64,000 bases of DNA, from contig CANQWN010000005.1 in the NCBI GenBank assembly GCA_947627575.1, positions 1 to 64,000 on the forward strand, in the 5' to 3' direction. The notes under the pieces are model-generated. The model was not told the DNA's origin. It did no database searches and was given only the letters and a program-made list of their open reading frames with translations. This document shows, piece by piece, positions 29,488-52,469 of the stretch. The stretch comes from an uncultured Clostridia bacterium (lineage in GTDB: Bacteria > Bacillota > Clostridia > Christensenellales > Borkfalkiaceae). Positions within the stretch are counted from its first letter, which is position 1. Every line of letters starts with the position of its first letter. The translations under genes were made by a program, and so were the position numbers.

Positions 29488-30108
29488 ATGACTCAAGAAC
29501 AGTTGATTGAAAAAATCAAGCAAACAAAGATAGTTCCCGTCGTAGTGCTGAACAGCATAGAGGAAACTTTGCCCAAAATGCAGGCGTTGGTGGAAGGCGG
29601 TTTGCCCTGCGCGGAAATAACTTTCCGCACGGCTTGCGCGGCGGAAGCCATTGCGCTTACCGTTAAAAAGTATCCCGATATGCTTGTCGGCGCGGGCACG
29701 GTAATAAACAGGGAGCAGTGCGAAAAGGCGATTGCCGCGGGCAGCAAATTTATCGTATCCCCCGGCTTTTCCGAAGAGGTTGCGGATTGCTGCAAGGAAC
29801 ACGGAATGCTTTATCTGCCCGGCATAGTTACCCCCACGGAAGCTATGGCGGCAATTGCAAAGGGGCTTACCACGCTTAAATTTTTCCCCGCTTCCAACTA
29901 TGGCGGACTTAAAACGATAAAGGCGATTTGCGCGGCGTTCCCTTACCTGCACATAATGCCCACGGGCGGCATAAACGAATCGAACATTCTCGAATATCTC
30001 GCATACGACAAGATTATAGCTTGCGGAGGCAGCTGGATGATGAGCGGCACCCCCGAAGAGATAAAGGCGAAAACGGCGGCTGCCGTAGAGCTTGTCAAAA
30101 ACGCATAA
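29488..30108 (+). CDS. eda: KDPG/KHG aldolase
   Basis: GLPCAEITFRT; VGAGTVINREQCEKAIAAGSKFIVSPGF; LKFFPASNYGG; MPTGGI. Confidence 0.92.
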   Translation: MTQEQLIEKIKQTKIVPVVVLNSIEETLPKMQALVEGGLPCAEITFRTACAAEAIALTVKKYPDMLVGAGTVINREQCEKAIAAGSKFIVSPGFSEEVADCCKEHGMLYLPGIVTPTEAMAAIAKGLTTLKFFPASNYGGLKTIKAICAAFPYLHIMPTGGINESNILEYLAYDKIIACGGSWMMSGTPEEIKAKTAAAVELVKNA

Positions 30109-30183
30109 AATATAAAAAAATCCCCCTGCCCCGCAGGGGGGGGCGGCACGCCCGTGCGCACGGGCGCAAAATAAAATTTACGG

Positions 30184-30210: not shown

Positions 30211-30294
30211 GCCCAAAATGTCCGCCGCATATTGACTTTGATGGCGAAATATGCTAAAATTAAGCGTGCAAACAGTTTAACGAGGGTTTTTTAC

Positions 30295-32334
30295 ATGATA
30301 AACAGGCGCGCTATATTTGCCGACGAAACAACTGACTTCAAAACGCCTTACGAACCTGTATCGGGAGACAGGGTTACGCTTACTTTACGCACGCTGTCTA
30401 ACGACGTGCTGCGCGCATATGTCGTAATCAACGGGATAAAGAGGGTTATGACAAAAGTTGTTAGCGGCGACAATTTCGATTTTTACAGGATGTCGTTTAC
30501 CTGCACCGAAAAGCCCGTAAGCTATCACTTCGTGCTTTACGACGAGGACGACAAGGTGATATACAACCGGCTGGGCTGCCTTGAAAACGCGCAACCCGAA
30601 TACGATTTTTCGTTTACGCCCGGCTTTAAAGTTCCCGATTGGGCGAAGGGCGCGGTTTTTTATCAGATATTTACTGACCGTTTCTGCAACGGCGAACCCG
30701 CCAACGACGTGTGCGACGGGGAATATTATTACACGGGCGGGCACGCCAAACACATAGAGGAGTGGGGCAAGTATCCCGACGAGCTTGACGTACGCTGTTT
30801 TTACGGCGGCGACTTGCAGGGCGTAATGCAAAAGCTGGATTATTTGCAGGAACTCGGCGTGGAAGCTATCTACTTCAATCCGCTGTTCGTCTCTCCTTCC
30901 AACCACAAGTACGACACGCAGGATTACGACCATATCGACCCGCACCTTGCGGTTATAGAGGAAGACTGCGACCACAGGATGTTGCATTGGGAGCAGAACA
31001 ACGGGTATGCCGCGCGATATATAAAGCGCGTAACTTCAAAGATAAATCTCGAAAAAAGCAACGAATATTTCGCCTCTCTCGTCAAGGAAATCCACAGGCG
31101 CGGTATGCGCGTGGTGATAGACGGCGTGTTCAATCATTGCGGCTCTTTCAACAAATGGATGGACAGGGAGGGAATATATCTCGGCAAAAAGGGCTATGAA
31201 TACGGCGCGTACCAATCAGTTTCCAGCCCTTACCGCAATTATTTCAAATTCGATAAACCCAACGAGGCGAAAAGCGATTACGAGGGGTGGTGGGATTTTC
31301 CCACTTTGCCGAAGCTGAATTACGAACACAGCGCCGAGCTGGAAGATTATATTCTTTCCACGGGCGCAAAATGGGTTTCGGAACCTTTCTGCGTGGACGG
31401 TTGGCGCCTCGACGTGGCGGCGGATTTGGGGCACAGCCCGCGATACAATCATTTGTTCTGGCGCAATTTCCGCGAAAAGGTGCGCGCCGCCAACCCCGAA
31501 GCGTTTATCTTCGCGGAACATTACGGCAACCCCGAAAGCTGGTTCAACGGCAAGGAATGGGATTCCGTGATGAATTACGACGCGTTTATGGAACCCGTCT
31601 CCTATTTTCTGACGGGTATGGAAAAGCACAGCGAAGCGTTTGACGCGGCAAAACTTTGGGACGGGAAGCAGTTTTTCGCGGCTATGGCTAAAAATATGGC
31701 TAAATTCCAAAGACCCGCTTTGGATTCCGCTTTAAACCAGCTTTCCAATCACGACCATTCGCGCTTCCTTACAAGAACAAACGGCACGGTGGGCACTTTA
31801 AAGACTATGGGACCGCACGCCGCGGCGTACGGAACAGACCGCCGCACGATGGGGCTTGCGGTGCTTATACAGATGACGTGGCCCGGCTCTCCCGGAATAT
31901 ACTACGGCGACGAGGCGGGGCAAGTTGGCTGGACCGACCCGGACAGCCGCCGCACCTATCCTTGGGGACATGAGGACCAGAGGATGATTGATTTCCACAA
32001 GGCGCTTACGCAGTTGAGGAAATCCGTCCATTGCATAAGGATGGGCAGTATAAAGGCTTTGGACGGCGGCGAGGGCTATATATGTTACGGCAGGTTCGAT
32101 AAAGAGGACTGCATTGCGGTGGTGATAAATTGCACCGACGAGGAAAAATCGCTTGCCGTCCCCGTCTGGGAAATGCAGGTGCCCACGGGCGTAACCATGT
32201 ACCGCGCGTTGCAGTGCGGCGGCTACGATTTCGTAATGGACGACAAACCCTGCGCAGTAAAACACGGCAGATTGTTTTTAACTCTGCCGGCAAAAAGCGG
32301 TTGCGTCTACCGCTATAATTACAATCAGGAATAG
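30295..32334 (+). CDS. Alpha-amylase family glycosidase (neopullulanase-like)
   Basis: GH13 motifs VVIDGVFNHC, GWRLDVAAD, IFAEHYG, SNHDHSRF; ATG at 30295. Confidence 0.9.
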   Translation: MINRRAIFADETTDFKTPYEPVSGDRVTLTLRTLSNDVLRAYVVINGIKRVMTKVVSGDNFDFYRMSFTCTEKPVSYHFVLYDEDDKVIYNRLGCLENAQPEYDFSFTPGFKVPDWAKGAVFYQIFTDRFCNGEPANDVCDGEYYYTGGHAKHIEEWGKYPDELDVRCFYGGDLQGVMQKLDYLQELGVEAIYFNPLFVSPSNHKYDTQDYDHIDPHLAVIEEDCDHRMLHWEQNNGYAARYIKRVTSKINLEKSNEYFASLVKEIHRRGMRVVIDGVFNHCGSFNKWMDREGIYLGKKGYEYGAYQSVSSPYRNYFKFDKPNEAKSDYEGWWDFPTLPKLNYEHSAELEDYILSTGAKWVSEPFCVDGWRLDVAADLGHSPRYNHLFWRNFREKVRAANPEAFIFAEHYGNPESWFNGKEWDSVMNYDAFMEPVSYFLTGMEKHSEAFDAAKLWDGKQFFAAMAKNMAKFQRPALDSALNQLSNHDHSRFLTRTNGTVGTLKTMGPHAAAYGTDRRTMGLAVLIQMTWPGSPGIYYGDEAGQVGWTDPDSRRTYPWGHEDQRMIDFHKALTQLRKSVHCIRMGSIKALDGGEGYICYGRFDKEDCIAVVINCTDEEKSLAVPVWEMQVPTGVTMYRALQCGGYDFVMDDKPCAVKHGRLFLTLPAKSGCVYRYNYNQE

Positions 32335-43780: not shown

Positions 43781-46735
43781 ATGTTTAATTTGCTTCTTGA
43801 CGAAAACTTATTTTCCGAGGTTTGGATAAATGTAATTGCGGGGATTATTTCGTCTGCATTGCTTGCTATTCTGCCTTTTGTGATAGGTTTGGTAAAAACA
43901 AAAAGTAAAAATAAATTTTACAAAGCGCTTTTTAATGTTACAAGTCCAAGCGAAACAGAAAAAATTTATATCAAACATTACGTAAAACACGCTTTTGAAA
44001 AGGTATATTTTCCTATTCTCGGAGGGGAGAAAAACGTAAATTACAAATCGCTGGTTAAAGAGATCAAAAGCGAGAAACTGAAAACGACAATCATATTAGG
44101 CAGCTCCGGCATAGGTAAATCTACGCTTATGTGCAAGCTGGCTTATTTGTTCCGTTCAAAGCCCAATGAAAATGACGGCAAGCGGCAATCGGCGATAAAC
44201 TACGGCATTTTATTTTATAAGTTGGGGCGAGGCTCTTCCATAGACGCGGTTTTAGCCGATATCGGACGTAAATTATCGTCCGACAGAACATATATTTTGT
44301 TCCTCGACGGGTTGGACGAAGTCCCCGATTTGCAAAATGAAAGCGGCGAGGCCGTTTTAAACAAGCTGTTAATAAAACTTTTTAGTTCCGAATATTCCTC
44401 CGGCTTGAACAAAATTTTTATTTCGTTGCGACCCGAAATTTTAAGCAAAGGCTATTCATACGCCTTTAATATCCAACCTCAATATATATCCGATAGCACG
44501 GCGATTTATAAGATTTGCAATTTTAACGAAAAACAAATTTTAACAATGTATCGGCGTGAAAGATATTCCTATAAAAACGGCGTCCGTATGAAAGCCGATT
44601 TGTTTATCCGCAGGCAAAACTATAAAAAGTTAAGGCAGGTAGTTAAAGAAAACCCTCAAAGCATCTTCACTTATCCTTTGATTTTAACGTGGGCGAACGA
44701 AATACTTTGCGATTACAATATAGAAAAATTAAAGTATATATCGTGGTATGACGCTTTGGGGAAAGTTATAGAAAAGGAATCTGACCGCGAATATGACATT
44801 GAATTAAGCAAAAAGGGTAAAATTATCGGCGTTTCCGCTGATGAGAGGGATAAATATAAGGGAGATTTTAAAAAGTTTTTGTTAAATATAGCGTTGCGTA
44901 TGGCGCAGACGAACAGTCAACGCGTAGCCCAAAGCGTTGTAAGCGAAGTGGTGTCGCAATTAAATTTGAACGGTGAACCAACCGTATTTTTAGCCCGCCG
45001 TCTGCTTCGTTATATAGAACGATCCGAAACGGAAAACGGTGAAAAGAGTGAACCGTATTACGAATTTATACATAATACCGTTTATTGGAGGGCTTTGGCG
45101 GAGGCTATGCTCAACCCACATATTCCGCAAACCGTGCGGGCGGCAATAATAACCGGATTTAACAAAGATACGCCCGTCTTGCAATATTGCCGTCAAGGGC
45201 TTTATAGCGTATACGGTGAAAAAATTTTCCCGTATGGGAATCAAGATAAATATTTCGCCGCAGTTGAAAATAAGGTTATCGAATGTAACGTGTTGCAAAA
45301 CGTCATCCCTTGCGAAATAGTTTTATCCTGTTTTTACGGTATAGACCAAGTTGTTTTCAACATATCTTCGGATAGCGCCGTCAAGTTCGGCTTTGCCCAA
45401 ATCAAAGAATTTGTAGAAAACAGAAAAGTTGATTTTTCCAACAGCCCGATTTCCGATTTAACTATATTGCAAAGTTTTTCGGATAGTTCTTTCAACGCGC
45501 TTGATTGTTCCAATTCCGATGTGGTAACCGTGAAAATCCCCGATTATGTAACGGAAATAAAATTTCTTAAATGTGCCTCGCTTAAAAATGTTGAGATAGG
45601 AAGCGGCGTGCAATCGATTGGCGAATTTGCGTTTGGCGGTTGTACTTCGCTTGAAAATATCACCATTCCCGACAGCGTAAAAGATATAGGCAAGGGTGCT
45701 TTTCTTAAATGCACCTCGCTTAAAAGCGTAAAGATAGGAAGCGGTTTGCAATCGTTAGGTGAACACGTTTTCGATCAGTGCATCTCGCTTGAAGGCATCA
45801 CCATACCGTCTAACGTAAAAGATATAGGCGAATGTGCTTTTCTGCACTGTACCTCGCTTAAAAATGTGGAGATAGGCAACGGCGTGATATCGATAGGCGA
45901 ACAGGCGTTCGGAGGTTGCATCTCGCTTGAAGGCATCACCATACCCGATAACGTAAAAGAGTTAGGCAAGGGTGCGTTTGCCGGTTGTGCCTCGCTTAAA
46001 AATGTTGAGATAGGAAGCGGCGTGCAATCGATTGGCGAATTTGCGTTTGGCGGTTGTACTTCGCTTGAAAATATCACCATTCCCGACAGCGTAAAAGATA
46101 TAGGCAAGGGTGCTTTTATTAAATGCGCCTCGCTTAAAAATGTAAAGATAGGCAACGGTGTGGAATTGATAGACGGTGGTGCGTTCTCTTATTGCACTGC
46201 GCTTGAAAGCGTAAGCATACCGGATAATGTAAAAGGAATAGGTGAGGTTGCGTTCTATGGTTGCACCTCGCTTAAAAGCGTAAAGATAGGAAGCGGTTTG
46301 CAATCGATTGGCGAATCGGCGTTCTATGATTGTACTTCGCTTAAAAACGTGAAGATAGGAAGCGGCGTGCAATCCATTGGCGCACAGGCGTTTCAATTTT
46401 GTGCCTCGCTTGAAAGCGTCACCATACCCGATAACGTAAAAGATATAGGGAAACTTACGTTCTATTATTGCACCTCGCTGAAAAACTTAAAGATAGGCAA
46501 CGATGTGGAATTGATAGGCGAACGGGTGTTTGATTATTGCACTTCGCTTGAAAGTATCACTATACCCGAAAGCGTAAAAAAGATAGGCAAGGGCGCGTTT
46601 GCAAATTCAGGAATAGCCGCAATAACTTTCGGCGGCACGGTTTCGGATTGGGAAAAGGTTGAAAAAGCCGAAACTTTTTACCTTTCGGAAGTTAAAGAAG
46701 TTGTTTGCAAAGACGGAAGCGTGGAAGTAAAGTAA
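43781..46735 (+). CDS. Membrane-anchored NACHT/STAND NTPase with C-terminal BspA-type LRRs
   Basis: N-terminal TM VIAGIISSALLAILPFVIGLV; GSSGIGKST Walker A; YILFLDGLDEVPD NACHT Walker B; ~15 LRR_5 units. Confidence 0.85.
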   Translation: MFNLLLDENLFSEVWINVIAGIISSALLAILPFVIGLVKTKSKNKFYKALFNVTSPSETEKIYIKHYVKHAFEKVYFPILGGEKNVNYKSLVKEIKSEKLKTTIILGSSGIGKSTLMCKLAYLFRSKPNENDGKRQSAINYGILFYKLGRGSSIDAVLADIGRKLSSDRTYILFLDGLDEVPDLQNESGEAVLNKLLIKLFSSEYSSGLNKIFISLRPEILSKGYSYAFNIQPQYISDSTAIYKICNFNEKQILTMYRRERYSYKNGVRMKADLFIRRQNYKKLRQVVKENPQSIFTYPLILTWANEILCDYNIEKLKYISWYDALGKVIEKESDREYDIELSKKGKIIGVSADERDKYKGDFKKFLLNIALRMAQTNSQRVAQSVVSEVVSQLNLNGEPTVFLARRLLRYIERSETENGEKSEPYYEFIHNTVYWRALAEAMLNPHIPQTVRAAIITGFNKDTPVLQYCRQGLYSVYGEKIFPYGNQDKYFAAVENKVIECNVLQNVIPCEIVLSCFYGIDQVVFNISSDSAVKFGFAQIKEFVENRKVDFSNSPISDLTILQSFSDSSFNALDCSNSDVVTVKIPDYVTEIKFLKCASLKNVEIGSGVQSIGEFAFGGCTSLENITIPDSVKDIGKGAFLKCTSLKSVKIGSGLQSLGEHVFDQCISLEGITIPSNVKDIGECAFLHCTSLKNVEIGNGVISIGEQAFGGCISLEGITIPDNVKELGKGAFAGCASLKNVEIGSGVQSIGEFAFGGCTSLENITIPDSVKDIGKGAFIKCASLKNVKIGNGVELIDGGAFSYCTALESVSIPDNVKGIGEVAFYGCTSLKSVKIGSGLQSIGESAFYDCTSLKNVKIGSGVQSIGAQAFQFCASLESVTIPDNVKDIGKLTFYYCTSLKNLKIGNDVELIGERVFDYCTSLESITIPESVKKIGKGAFANSGIAAITFGGTVSDWEKVEKAETFYLSEVKEVVCKDGSVEVK

Positions 46736-46867
46736 AAAATTTTGTGTTTTTTTGGTGGCGAAGGAAACAAATTGCCGAAAAAATCGGTATATATAGTGAA
46801 AGATTTGCGGTTTATGTAAAAGCGGCGGGCGGAACAGCCGAACACAAAAGAAAAACGGCGGAAGAAG

Positions 46868-47746
46868 ATGAAAAAATTTTTTGAATTATTGAAGTACGGC
46901 ATAAACAGATACGTATTGAAAAATTTGTACACCGTGCTTAACTTTTTGTTTGCGATAGCCTCGGTTGTGTTCATTTTCGTGCCGTTGCAAAGCGGCGGCA
47001 AGGATTACAGGTGGATTGCACTGATATGCCTTTTGGCGGTTGCGCTGATTGCGTTTGTGGCAAACGCCGCGATATTGAAGTACAAAAGCAAAATAGACAT
47101 AAAGATAAACGGTACGGACGTGCGCATAGTTTTCGGCGATATATTCGATAATTCCCAATTCGTCCCCAAAGGCGGCGCAAAGGTTTACAGGGTTATAGGC
47201 GTAAACGACTTTTTCGATACCCACGTAGGCGACGGCGTAATAGACGAAAACAGCCTGCACGGCAAGTTTCTTAAACGCTTCAACATTTCCTGCGAAGATT
47301 TGCAAGCCCGCATAGCCGCGGACGCCGCGCTTAAAAACGAAATTTGTTGCACCACAGAGGAAAGGCAGTACGGCAACAACATAAAGTACAATTTGGGCAG
47401 TATCTTCAAGGACGAAAAAACAGATTGCATACTTGTCGCCATTTCCCGTTTCAACAAAAACAACAACGCCGAACTTACCAATTCCGAACTTATGCAATGC
47501 TACCTTAAAATGTGGGAGGAGATAAAAAGGGTTAAGGAAAGCCGAGGCATAGTTATCCCCCTGCTGGGCGCAAGCGGCAACATAAAAACCGACGTAAATC
47601 TTTCCGTGCAGGAAATTTTGGAAACGCTGTTACATTCGGTTAAATTAAGCAACTTGCGTATCGGCTCACCCGCCAGACTTACGGTAGTTTTAAACAAACA
47701 ATTAAAGCAAAGTTTTGATTTGCAAAGGATAAAATACATTTTTTGA
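46868..47746 (+). CDS. Two-TM macro-domain protein, type II Thoeris ThsA-like effector
   Basis: Two N-terminal TM helices; VRIVFGDIFD...VIGVNDFFDTHVGDGVIDENSLHGKF...GIVIPLLGASGNIKT. Confidence 0.75.
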   Translation: MKKFFELLKYGINRYVLKNLYTVLNFLFAIASVVFIFVPLQSGGKDYRWIALICLLAVALIAFVANAAILKYKSKIDIKINGTDVRIVFGDIFDNSQFVPKGGAKVYRVIGVNDFFDTHVGDGVIDENSLHGKFLKRFNISCEDLQARIAADAALKNEICCTTEERQYGNNIKYNLGSIFKDEKTDCILVAISRFNKNNNAELTNSELMQCYLKMWEEIKRVKESRGIVIPLLGASGNIKTDVNLSVQEILETLLHSVKLSNLRIGSPARLTVVLNKQLKQSFDLQRIKYIF

Positions 47747-47754
47747 GGTGAACC

Positions 47755-48381
47755 ATGGGGCACAGATGTTTTATAAGTTTTAAAAAAGAGGACGTGTATT
47801 ACAGAGATAAAATTCAGGAAAAGTTGGGCGAAGAAAACATCAATAGCAAATCGCTGGACAAGTGGATAGATTCCGAAGATATCGATTACGTTATGCAGGA
47901 AATCCGCAAAAATTATATGTCCAACACCGCCGTAACCATTTTTCTGATAGGCGAACATTCCTCCGAAAACGAGGGAAATGACGAAGAAGGCCGTGATAAA
48001 AACGCGTTTATAAAGCGCGAGCTTCAAGCCACGCTTTACGACGGCAAAGGCTTCCGCCGAAGCGGACTTTTGGGCGTAGTTTTGCCCTCTATGGAAAGTA
48101 AAATTTACGGCGGCAAATATTACTGTAATAAGTGCGAAGAAAATCATAATTACGTGTATGTGAACGACAGAACCGTAGTACGCGAATTTCATAAAAACTA
48201 CTATCTTAAACCCATAGATTACGGTTGTAAAAACGTTTACGCCGAGGACGGCAGATTTTGCGTACTTGTGCGGTACAGCGAATTTATGAGCGGTGACAAC
48301 GCCGAAAAGTACATAGACATGGCGTATGATAAAACGCAACAGGATATATCCAAATACGTGCATTGGCATAATTTAAGATAA
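47755..48381 (+). CDS. TIR-domain protein, Thoeris ThsB-like
   Basis: HRCFISFKKEDVYYRDKIQEKL; TAVTIFLIGEHSSE; FIKRELQATLYDG; 8 bp after the macro gene. Confidence 0.8.
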   Translation: MGHRCFISFKKEDVYYRDKIQEKLGEENINSKSLDKWIDSEDIDYVMQEIRKNYMSNTAVTIFLIGEHSSENEGNDEEGRDKNAFIKRELQATLYDGKGFRRSGLLGVVLPSMESKIYGGKYYCNKCEENHNYVYVNDRTVVREFHKNYYLKPIDYGCKNVYAEDGRFCVLVRYSEFMSGDNAEKYIDMAYDKTQQDISKYVHWHNLR

Positions 48382-48399
48382 TACGGTTTTAAATCGGTT

Positions 48400-48440
48400 G
48401 CCGCCGCGCGGGCAAATTGCCCGCGCGGCGGCATTTTTTT
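48400..48440 (+). terminator. Strong Rho-independent terminator
   Basis: GCCGCCGCGCGGGC-aaatt-GCCCGCGCGGCGGC then T-run. Confidence 0.9.
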
Positions 48441-48659
48441 TGTGTTTTTTTATAACGGGGAAGTAGGGTTGCGGTTTTGTTTTTTTTGCGGCGGGAAGCG
48501 GGGCATTTTTTTGTGTTTAGGGGAAGGTTTTTTTGCGGCGGGGGGGTGCGGTGGCAAAAGCCCCGTCAAGGGTTCACTTAAAGCGAGCGTAAGTAACAGC
48601 GCAACGCACGCAAAATTGTTATATAATAAAAAATTATGTAAAAAAATTACACAAAACCC

Positions 48660-48689
48660 TTGACGGGGGGGGGGCGTTTACTGTATAAT
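48660..48689 (+). promoter_or_regulatory. Putative phase-variable promoter (G10 in spacer)
   Basis: TTGACG (48660-48665), 18-bp spacer starting with poly-G, TATAAT (48684-48689). Confidence 0.7.
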
Positions 48690-48764
48690 AATATCGGTAT
48701 CGCGTAAACTACACTCGATACACATAAAAAAATAAATCTGCGCGTAGGCAGATAAGGAGGATTA

Positions 48765-51700
48765 ATGAAAAACAAACTGTTAAAAGGTCTGTTGATTGCC
48801 GGATTGGGCGTTATATCCGCTACGGCAACCGTAGGCGCGGTTGCCTGCAAAAAGGATAAAAACAACGACGACCAGCACAACACTCAAGAACAGACCTGGA
48901 AAGTAACGTTTGACAGCAAGGGCGGTTCCGCCGTAAGCCAGGCAAGCGTTAAAGACGGCGAAAAGGTTGCAAAACCCGCCACCGACCCCACCCGCGAGGG
49001 CTATCAATTCGGCGGATGGTACAGCGACGCCGATTGCACACAGGTGTTCGACTTTAACAACACCACGATCACCAAAAACACCACTTTGTACGCCAAATGG
49101 GTACCCGACGGCGAAGACATGGAATACGTTGTAACTTACGACCTCAACGGCCACGGCGGCACAACCGCGCCCCCGCCCGTTACGGTAACCGAAGGCGGCA
49201 AATTAACCGCGCCCACCCCTCCCACGGACGCCGAATACAACTTTGTAGGTTGGTATAAGGACGCCGCGGGCACGGACGCGTTCGATTTCGATAACGACAC
49301 GATAACCGAGGCAATCACGCTGTACGCCAAATGGGAACCCAAACAAACAGGCGGTGGCGGCGGTCAAGGCGGAGATGTAACCACGGGCTACACGCTTACG
49401 ATAGATTACGACGACGTTTTGCCCAACGGCACGTTGCAGTCCGACGCGGACGGCAACCTTACAAAACCCGCCGATCCCACCGATCCCACCTCTACCTATC
49501 ACTTCGAGGGCTGGTATGCCGACGCCGATTTCTTGTCGGAATTTAATTGGAATACGCCCATAACCGGCGCAACCACCGTATACGCAAAATGGTCGGAGGA
49601 CGCCGTAACCGCATTCGATTACGCGGCAGGGTATGCCACGGGATTCTATAACGGCGGTAATGGCAAAACAACCGAAGATCTCACCATAGGCAAATTCACC
49701 GTAGGTACGGGCGTCTATTTTGAAAATGACGCAATCAACACGCAGGGCGCGCGCCAGATTCACTTCACCTTGGTAGGCAGCACAAACACCGTCAGCTTTG
49801 AAGCCAACCGCGCAAGCGGCAGCGGTGAAACCACGCCTACATTGCATAAGGAAGACGGAACGCCCGTAACTACGGGGCTTTCCTCGATAGCGAAATCCGC
49901 AACCGACGGAAATTGGGGCAACACCTGGGCGACGGCAGGCGCGGGTAAAGACGGACAATATAAGTACAAAGCGGAAGGTCTGCCCGCGGGCGATTATTAT
50001 ATAGCGGTAGATACGGGCGCGCGTATATACAGTTTGCAGGTATCCGAACGCGTTGTAAAATCCGACGTGGAAGGCATAAGAGTTGCCACGGGCGGCACGA
50101 GGGACTACCTTGAAGGCACCGCCGCGCTTGTAGACGATATAAATGTACAGCTTGTATACGGCAGCGGCAGAACCGTTCCCGTTACCAGCGGCTACACGAT
50201 AACCACTTCCGACTACAACCCCGCAACCACGGGCAAGCAGTCCATAAAAGTATCCTATCTTTTCAAAGGCACTACTTACGATACCACGTACGACATATAC
50301 GTTTACGACGTAACCGAACTTGTTGTTTACGACTATTCGTTGGATAGTTCCCGCAAGACGCAGAACGTGCAGACGCTGTTCGACGTGGGCGACGATTTCA
50401 ATTCCGAAAATATCGGCGTAAAGGTAAAGGCGACGGTAACCAAGGACGAAACGCCCGTCACCAAGGAATTTGTGCTTACTTCCGCACAGTATACCGTTAA
50501 CTGCGATGCCGCGGAACTTGTTGCGGGCACGAAAACGGTAACCGTTTCCGGTAATTACAGCGGCTACAGCGACAAGTCAGACACTTACACCATCACCGTG
50601 GTTGATCTTACGCAGGTAACCGACAAGGCGAACATCACGGTAGACGCAAACGGCACGGCAGGAGTAGAGGCAGGCAAACTTACCGTAACGCGCATAGCCG
50701 ACGCGCTTAAAGCGTTCGAGCTGTTGGAAACCCCCGCCGCCACCGACAAGACGATTGAAATAACGCAAGGCGAATATAACGAGAAGTTGTGGATAGATAT
50801 CCCCAACCTCAAGTTGAAGGGCGTGCAGGACCACGCGGAACAGGTTGTTATCTGGTACGACGCGCTTAACGGCGTGATAGACCCCAGCGGCACAACCTTA
50901 CATTCCACCGACGGCAGTGCAAGCGTAACCATAGCAGAGGGCGCAGAGGGCTTCTCGGCAGAATATGTAACCTTCAAAAACTACTACAACACCAACGCAT
51001 TGTATCAGGAATCTTTGACGATAACCAAAGATTCGCAGGCGGTTGCGTGCCGCGTAGTTGCGGATAAGGTTGTATTTACGCATTGCCGCTTCACTTCCTA
51101 TCACGATACTTTGATGGACGAAGAGGGCAGGCACGTTTACAACGATTGCTATATCGAAGGCAGAACGGACTATATCTTCGGTTATAACTCCACCGCATAC
51201 TTTAAAAACTGCACTATCCATTCGATAGGCGCCGACGACGAAAAGAACGGCGGCTACGTAGTTGCAACAAAGGGCACCACAAGCGGCAACAGCATAAAGT
51301 ACGGCTATATCTTCGACGCATGTACTTTCGAAGGCGACGAACACGTAGTTGCAGGCACCGTTTCGATAGCGCGCGGTTGGGATACCGGTATGACGATTGT
51401 CGTTATGAACTCTACCATAAGCGATAAGTTCTCGCTTGAAGAATACGGCAATACAACGTCACCCAAGAACGACCGTTACGGCAAGATGAACGCAGACCCC
51501 GTAGCCGCACAGCTGTTTGAATATAACAACACCGGCGACGGCGCGTTGACAAACGAATATCTCACCGAACATTACGCAACGGTAAGCGATGAATCCGTAA
51601 CGTGGGAAGGCCTTTCCAACAACGTAACTATACCCAACCTTGCAACCATACTTTCGCAAACCAATGCAGAGGCGTTCCGGCAGATGACCACCATCTTCGG

Positions 51701-52469
51701 CACTACCAACGGCGGGCTTACGTACAGCGAAGTTTGGAGCGGCGTTCTTGAAAAAATTACGTTGACCATAAAGAGCGCAGAGGACGAAACCAAGACGGCA
51801 ACCTATGTTGGCTTTAAGGACAGCGGCGTAAGCCTTGCAGACCTTAAAGAAGCCATAAAGGGCGTTGAAGTTCCCGCAGGCAAGAGGTTCAAGCAGTTCA
51901 CCACCGATAAGCAGGGCGAACACCCCATTGATTTCAGCTCGTTCGTGCTTACGTCGGCTATCGATATCTGGATACAGTGGGAAGAAGCCGCGGCGGAAAG
52001 CGCAGAACTCAAAGCGGATAGCTATGATGTTAACTTCTCGTTAAGGGATGCGGCAAAAGATGATAAATATGTGGAAGTTAAAAGTGCAGGCAACACCGTA
52101 CTGTTCGTTCTTGACGAAATAGGTGTTGGCGACGTAAAAGTTGCGGCTCACTCGGCTACACATACCGATTATTCCTTCACTAATGTATTCTTGCCCGGCG
52201 GTAATGGCAGAACCTATACGATTACGGCTAAACAGAATATAAAACTCAAAGTTTATTTCGTAGTAACCGACGGCAGTTGGTCTAACAAGAAAGATAAACT
52301 TACTTGGACGATAGATAGTGGATCTATGGTAACGGGCACGCAAACCTGCAACGGCGACCAAGTTGCGCTTGAAACTATCAGTCTCAACGCCGACCAACAG
52401 GTAGTATTAGGTTCTACCAGCAACCGTCTCTGCATCTACGCACTTGTAGCGGAAACGGTAGTAGATTAA
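48765..52469 (+). CDS. Lipoprotein with InlB-like (Flg_new) repeats and pectinesterase domain
   Basis: Lipobox VGAVACKK; three xxGYxFxGWYxD..T.LYAKW units; EYVTFKNYYN, DSQAVACRV, TSYHDTLMDEEGRHVYNDCYIEGRTDYIFG. Confidence 0.85.
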   Translation: MKNKLLKGLLIAGLGVISATATVGAVACKKDKNNDDQHNTQEQTWKVTFDSKGGSAVSQASVKDGEKVAKPATDPTREGYQFGGWYSDADCTQVFDFNNTTITKNTTLYAKWVPDGEDMEYVVTYDLNGHGGTTAPPPVTVTEGGKLTAPTPPTDAEYNFVGWYKDAAGTDAFDFDNDTITEAITLYAKWEPKQTGGGGGQGGDVTTGYTLTIDYDDVLPNGTLQSDADGNLTKPADPTDPTSTYHFEGWYADADFLSEFNWNTPITGATTVYAKWSEDAVTAFDYAAGYATGFYNGGNGKTTEDLTIGKFTVGTGVYFENDAINTQGARQIHFTLVGSTNTVSFEANRASGSGETTPTLHKEDGTPVTTGLSSIAKSATDGNWGNTWATAGAGKDGQYKYKAEGLPAGDYYIAVDTGARIYSLQVSERVVKSDVEGIRVATGGTRDYLEGTAALVDDINVQLVYGSGRTVPVTSGYTITTSDYNPATTGKQSIKVSYLFKGTTYDTTYDIYVYDVTELVVYDYSLDSSRKTQNVQTLFDVGDDFNSENIGVKVKATVTKDETPVTKEFVLTSAQYTVNCDAAELVAGTKTVTVSGNYSGYSDKSDTYTITVVDLTQVTDKANITVDANGTAGVEAGKLTVTRIADALKAFELLETPAATDKTIEITQGEYNEKLWIDIPNLKLKGVQDHAEQVVIWYDALNGVIDPSGTTLHSTDGSASVTIAEGAEGFSAEYVTFKNYYNTNALYQESLTITKDSQAVACRVVADKVVFTHCRFTSYHDTLMDEEGRHVYNDCYIEGRTDYIFGYNSTAYFKNCTIHSIGADDEKNGGYVVATKGTTSGNSIKYGYIFDACTFEGDEHVVAGTVSIARGWDTGMTIVVMNSTISDKFSLEEYGNTTSPKNDRYGKMNADPVAAQLFEYNNTGDGALTNEYLTEHYATVSDESVTWEGLSNNVTIPNLATILSQTNAEAFRQMTTIFGTTNGGLTYSEVWSGVLEKITLTIKSAEDETKTATYVGFKDSGVSLADLKEAIKGVEVPAGKRFKQFTTDKQGEHPIDFSSFVLTSAIDIWIQWEEAAAESAELKADSYDVNFSLRDAAKDDKYVEVKSAGNTVLFVLDEIGVGDVKVAAHSATHTDYSFTNVFLPGGNGRTYTITAKQNIKLKVYFVVTDGSWSNKKDKLTWTIDSGSMVTGTQTCNGDQVALETISLNADQQVVLGSTSNRLCIYALVAETVVD

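Follow-up and report, generated by a model that had tools for sequence, protein, structure and literature searches.

A candidate phase-variable promoter with a poly-G spacer ahead of a surface lipoprotein gene in an uncultured Clostridia bacterium

RESULTS

A promoter with a G10 spacer tract precedes a lipoprotein gene

The stretch of DNA analyzed here, referred to as the window, comprises 64,000 nucleotides from an uncultured Clostridia bacterium. Within it, a gene for a TIR-domain protein ends at 48381 and is closed by a strong intrinsic terminator, so the lipoprotein gene that follows needs a promoter of its own. A promoter scan of the + strand between the two genes gave only one match, at 48660-48689. 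The features of the region are as follows.

48399..48441, + strand: intrinsic terminator of the upstream gene (hairpin 48399-48433), perfect 17-nt stem arms followed by T8
48611..48656, + strand: A+T-rich stretch abutting the -35 hexamer on its upstream side, a possible UP element
48660..48665, + strand: -35 hexamer TTGACG, 5/6 consensus
48665..48674, + strand: G10 tract within the 18-bp spacer between -35 and -10, the proposed slippage site
48684..48689, + strand: -10 hexamer TATAAT, 6/6 consensus
48754..48760, + strand: ribosome binding site AAGGAGG, just ahead of the ATG
48765..52469, + strand: gene for a 1234-aa lipoprotein with three List_Bact_rpt domains and one Pectinesterase domain (ORF call, Pfam)

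Read directly from the + strand, 48660-48689 is TTGACGGGGGGGGGGCGTTTACTGTATAAT, which has the layout TTGAC-G10-CGTTTACTG-TATAAT; with the tract length left free, the locus can be written CCCTTGAC-Gn-CGTTTACTG. The last G of the -35 hexamer is also the first G of the tract, and the two hexamers together match the consensus at 11 of 12 positions. An earlier note on this DNA had described TTGAC, G10, and TATAAT with an 18-bp spacer; that description is exact, and we count 10 Gs in the tract. In this respect, the promoter matches the homopolymer-spacer (porA) type, taken as one with a mononucleotide tract of at least about 8 between -35 and -10. The end of the -10 hexamer lies 75 nt from the ATG of the 1234-aa ORF. 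A/T stretches like the one at 48611..48656 also precede other promoters within the genus.

The first residues of the 1234-aa ORF, MKNKLLKGLLIAGLGVISATATVGAVACKK, resemble a lipoprotein signal. The same note had named a large InlB-repeat/pectinesterase lipoprotein as the target; Pfam assigns the protein Listeria-Bacteroides repeats, in three stretches, and one Pectinesterase domain. This signal and these repeats, together with the enrichment of such targets among poly-G promoters, mark the gene as a surface or host-exposed target. The pectinesterase domain aligns with pectin methylesterases of known structure (best E value, 3.6e-20). In an alignment to the solved enzymes, residues that we take to be catalytic are kept (the glutamine of QAVA, the aspartate of DTL, the aspartate of D-x-IFG, and the arginine before W), and the presumably catalytic glutamine of YQDTL is replaced by H, so pectinesterase activity is uncertain.

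A perfect 14-nt inverted repeat, CCCCGTCAAGGGTT, is found at 48561-48574 and 48655-48668, with its arms 80 nt apart and the right arm over the -35 hexamer. We considered an invertible promoter and rejected it. The repeat does not flank the promoter: one arm holds the -35, the -10 falls beyond the repeat, and an inversion would leave the promoter's orientation unchanged. A mobile repeat was likewise discarded: the 326-base region is without a second copy in the genome, where only matches of 18 to 33 nt were found.

G tracts in the window and in the same genome

No other G or C run of the window is as long as the G10 tract; an order-3 Markov model fitted to the window predicts 0.035 G/C runs of at least 10. 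The tail of run lengths is steeper than the model, with 51 runs of 5, 2 of 6, and one each of 7, 8, and 10. The run of 8 is a G8 at 30136-30143, between + strand ORFs at 29488-30108 and 30232-32334. The 1.59-Mb, 11-contig assembly holds 12 G/C runs of at least 9, compared with about 4 expected under the same order-3 model.

Most of these 12 runs lie within or ahead of surface genes, descriptions which, beyond the lipoprotein signals, were made by eye. Five are in or ahead of lipoprotein genes (C5:83230, C1:353480, C1:366241, C3:141846, and C4:12152). Others are found at a large repeat protein (C1:106441), at a membrane protein resembling a polysaccharide chain-length regulator (C1:1408), and at an ATP-grasp-like protein adjoining a sugar-aminotransferase-like gene (C2:66804). 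At C1:104078 (L003 1501-1510), a G10 sits at the position of a ribosome binding site, 7 nt ahead of the TTG start of a secreted protein, and is possibly a translational switch. At C4:12152 (G10; L072 3153-3162) and C3:141846 (G9; L071 2847-2855), the lipoprotein reading frame breaks exactly at the tract; past it, the upstream frame soon meets a stop, and another frame carries on the same repeat protein. Both are likely phase-OFF coding tracts. The genome also has a second poly-G promoter, TTGACAAAAGC-G8-TATAAT at C4:46636-46660 (L142), with a 13-bp spacer; it precedes a glycosyltransferase-like gene, for which an ordinary promoter also lies some 130 bp farther upstream.

Poly-G promoters recur across the order

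When 94 genomes from the genus were surveyed for TATAAT preceded by a tract of at least G8, spacer tracts appeared before unrelated lipoproteins of other species (e.g., L078, L088, and L094). Across the order, we searched for TTGAC-N(0-9)-G7-N(0-12)-TATAAT, with the identical pattern reversed as a control. The poly-G pattern (at least G7) was present in 64 of 396 genomes, from 28 genera, and the reversed pattern in none of the 396, a recurrence in related genomes beyond chance. Among genomes of the class outside the order, it occurred in 8 of 278, and 7 of the 9 places had only G7. Tract length peaked at 9 among the 150 matches listed, and the spacers of these matches span 11 to 26 bp.

The tract does not follow the gene. 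Relatives of the gene occur in Candidatus Coproplasma. Thirteen relatives of the lipoprotein (31 to 45% identity) carry no G tract in a promoter spacer in their upstream regions; one of them (L065) does have a G9, but downstream of its -10. By this comparison, the putative switch is not conserved at the lipoprotein gene. Species differ in their known phase-variable genes as well, and we do not treat conservation among orthologues as a strict requirement.

Very long pure G runs were seen in two genomes (G015:C55:1-30 and G017:C66:690-738), with one run sitting at the end of its contig. These are probably read artifacts, and they are a warning to homopolymer surveys of metagenome assemblies.

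Spacers of poly-G promoters avoid 17 bp

We compared the 143 distinct promoters among the 150 matches listed with 143 ordinary TTGACA/TATAAT promoters from the window's genome and one congener (G073). A 17-bp spacer was found in 104/143 ordinary promoters and in only 10/143 poly-G promoters, figures that a systematic one-base length error in the assemblies could shift; the poly-G set has modes at 16 bp and, smaller, at 19 bp. The 17-bp deficit is seen in every well-sampled family. When tract lengths were shuffled among promoters, 17-bp spacers numbered 22 on average, against 10 observed (P = 0.0005), and 16-bp spacers 32, against 47 observed (P = 0.0006). The deficit is therefore not merely a product of common flanks combined with common tract lengths; spacing is coupled to tract length, and the promoters keep away from the optimum. 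Assemblies may capture the majority state, and this state may usually be off or weak; alternatively, a shifted optimum for G-tract DNA would explain the avoidance of 17 bp. The scarcity of 17-bp spacers is a quantitative and testable clue to the bias of such switches in nature.

Targets and paralogous promoters

Lipoproteins, secreted proteins, or membrane proteins follow 56/93 poly-G promoters and 7/38 ordinary promoters (p = 1.5e-5), with signal peptides called in both sets by the same simple home-made rule and with the ordinary set drawn largely from the window's genome and the poly-G set from the whole order. About 40% of the scored poly-G promoters thus precede genes not called surface proteins. 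Paralogous promoters of single genomes could also be compared. In G184, the promoter cores of two paralogous lipoprotein genes, 98% identical across the 60 nt upstream, differ only by G11 versus G12; in G470, a repeated promoter is present with G7 and with G8. Of all the data, these one-G differences come closest to showing slippage. In G194, the members of a paralogous lipoprotein family (L149, L207, L208, and L210) each have the same G9 promoter with a 15-bp spacer.

DISCUSSION

A slippage-prone spacer probably modulates the lipoprotein gene

From sequence and comparison, we consider it probable that the G10 spacer is prone to slippage and modulates transcription of the surface lipoprotein gene at 48765-52469. 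The tract would form part of a sigma-70-type promoter, in which replication slippage would add or remove single Gs and so shift both the distance and the helical phase between -35 and -10; the gene would then be transcribed strongly in some daughter cells and weakly or not at all in others. The earlier note had proposed such a phase-variable promoter, and the proposal is well supported by the recurrence of the layout against a zero control, the spacing away from 17 bp, the surface targets, the one-G difference between paralogues, and the frame-breaking tracts. That the tract at 48665-48674 itself varies in living cells we infer from these comparisons. On the 17-bp norm of the genome, loss of one G would improve the promoter, as the earlier note had it, the assembled 18-bp form being the weaker and a 17-bp form the stronger; the switch may also run in the other direction, because a longer tract can be the stronger one in porA. 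Loss of mismatch repair was rejected as a cause of slippage, as MutS is present in the genome, and slippage would occur at wild-type rates. The presence of MutS counts against the proposal, as do the lack of the tract at relatives of the gene and the roughly 40% of poly-G promoters whose targets were not called surface proteins.

The main competing view is that the tract tunes promoter strength on an evolutionary time scale only, the order favoring G-rich spacers whose optimum is perhaps 16 bp, so that species differ and populations hardly vary. An optimum shifted in G-tract DNA would also be consistent with the peak at 16 bp and the shortage of 17-bp spacers, and the four close paralogous promoters of G194 are all G9. 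A spacer range of 11 to 26 bp is too wide for a fixed optimum, however; paralogous promoters elsewhere differ by one G, coding G tracts break reading frames in the same genome, and G runs of 9 to 10 are mutable in other bacteria (PMC3639595). We regard tuning of this kind as unlikely. That a G run fell into the promoter spacer by chance and plays no part in regulation is very unlikely: the genome does hold 12 long G runs, several of them within genes, the order-3 model allows 0.035 such runs per window, and relatives of the gene are without the tract, but the layout is found in 64 genomes with no control matches, and its spacing and targets are nonrandom.

Least probable of all are two further accounts. 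In favor of the tract length being a sequencing or assembly artifact of the metagenome are the very long G runs of some genomes of the genus, one at a contig end, which look like read artifacts, and a systematic one-base error could skew the spacer statistics; the tract, however, lies inside a 140-kb contig, away from the ends, between a clear -35 and a clear -10, and errors would not pick the promoter spacers of surface genes or yield a zero control. It is equally hard to credit that the -35 region is controlled by a DNA-binding protein bound to the inverted repeat and that the G tract is incidental. The repeat is perfect over 14 nt and places one of its arms over the -35, but the region is single copy in the genome and its flanks are not common to other poly-G promoters.

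Relation to known systems

The nearest parallel to the G10 promoter is porA of Neisseria meningitidis, in which a poly-G tract likewise lies between the -35 and -10 of a surface-protein gene; it has 9 to 11 Gs there and 10 here. Changes in the length of the porA tract alter transcription. PorA expression follows the order 11G > 10G > 9G, the longest tract being the high state, and the frequency of variants has been estimated at about 2e-5 in meningococci with intact MutS (PMC3639595). PorA is an outer-membrane porin of a Gram-negative organism whose switching was shown experimentally, whereas here a lipoprotein of an uncultured Clostridia bacterium is concerned and switching is deduced from sequence. 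In Mycoplasma hyorhinis, the vlp system has a homopolymer in the promoter region of each lipoprotein gene and switches transcriptionally (Citti and Wise 1995, as described in PMC10502178). The paralogous lipoprotein sets with homopolymer promoters in G194 and G184 are vlp-like in this, and the difference lies in vlp being a poly-A system of one family at one locus, whereas the tracts described here are poly-G and precede unrelated genes across many genomes. Contingency genes with homopolymers in the coding region include the meningococcal lgtG (PMC3639595) and have been surveyed (PMC2831843). The window's genome resembles these in having G9 and G10 tracts inside lipoprotein and other surface genes, of which two lose their frame at the tract; unlike coding tracts, the one at 48665-48674 would affect transcription and leave the reading frame untouched.

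Discussions of phase variation in gut Clostridia center mostly on DNA inversion. The mechanism proposed here is already known; the open literature searched yielded no account of phase variation for this lineage and no description of how widely such promoters are used there. It is conceivable, though we hold this only tentatively, that the whole order uses poly-G spacers as a general bet-hedging device for surface lipoproteins, mostly 1 to 2 bases off the 17-bp optimum; each gene would then normally be off and one slip from on. If slippage promoters do operate across the order, the expression of many surface lipoproteins could not be read from the genome alone. Counts of G in existing metagenome reads would allow the system to be checked at once.

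Upstream neighbors

The TIR gene upstream of the promoter is the last of three consecutive genes at 43781-48381 of the window, which encode a NACHT protein carrying long LRR_5 repeats, a macro-domain protein of the ThsA type (PADLOC ThsA; E value, 8.6e-63), and the TIR protein (Pfam ThsB_TIR). By these domain matches, the trio is a Thoeris-like defense set with an unusual NACHT-LRR partner.
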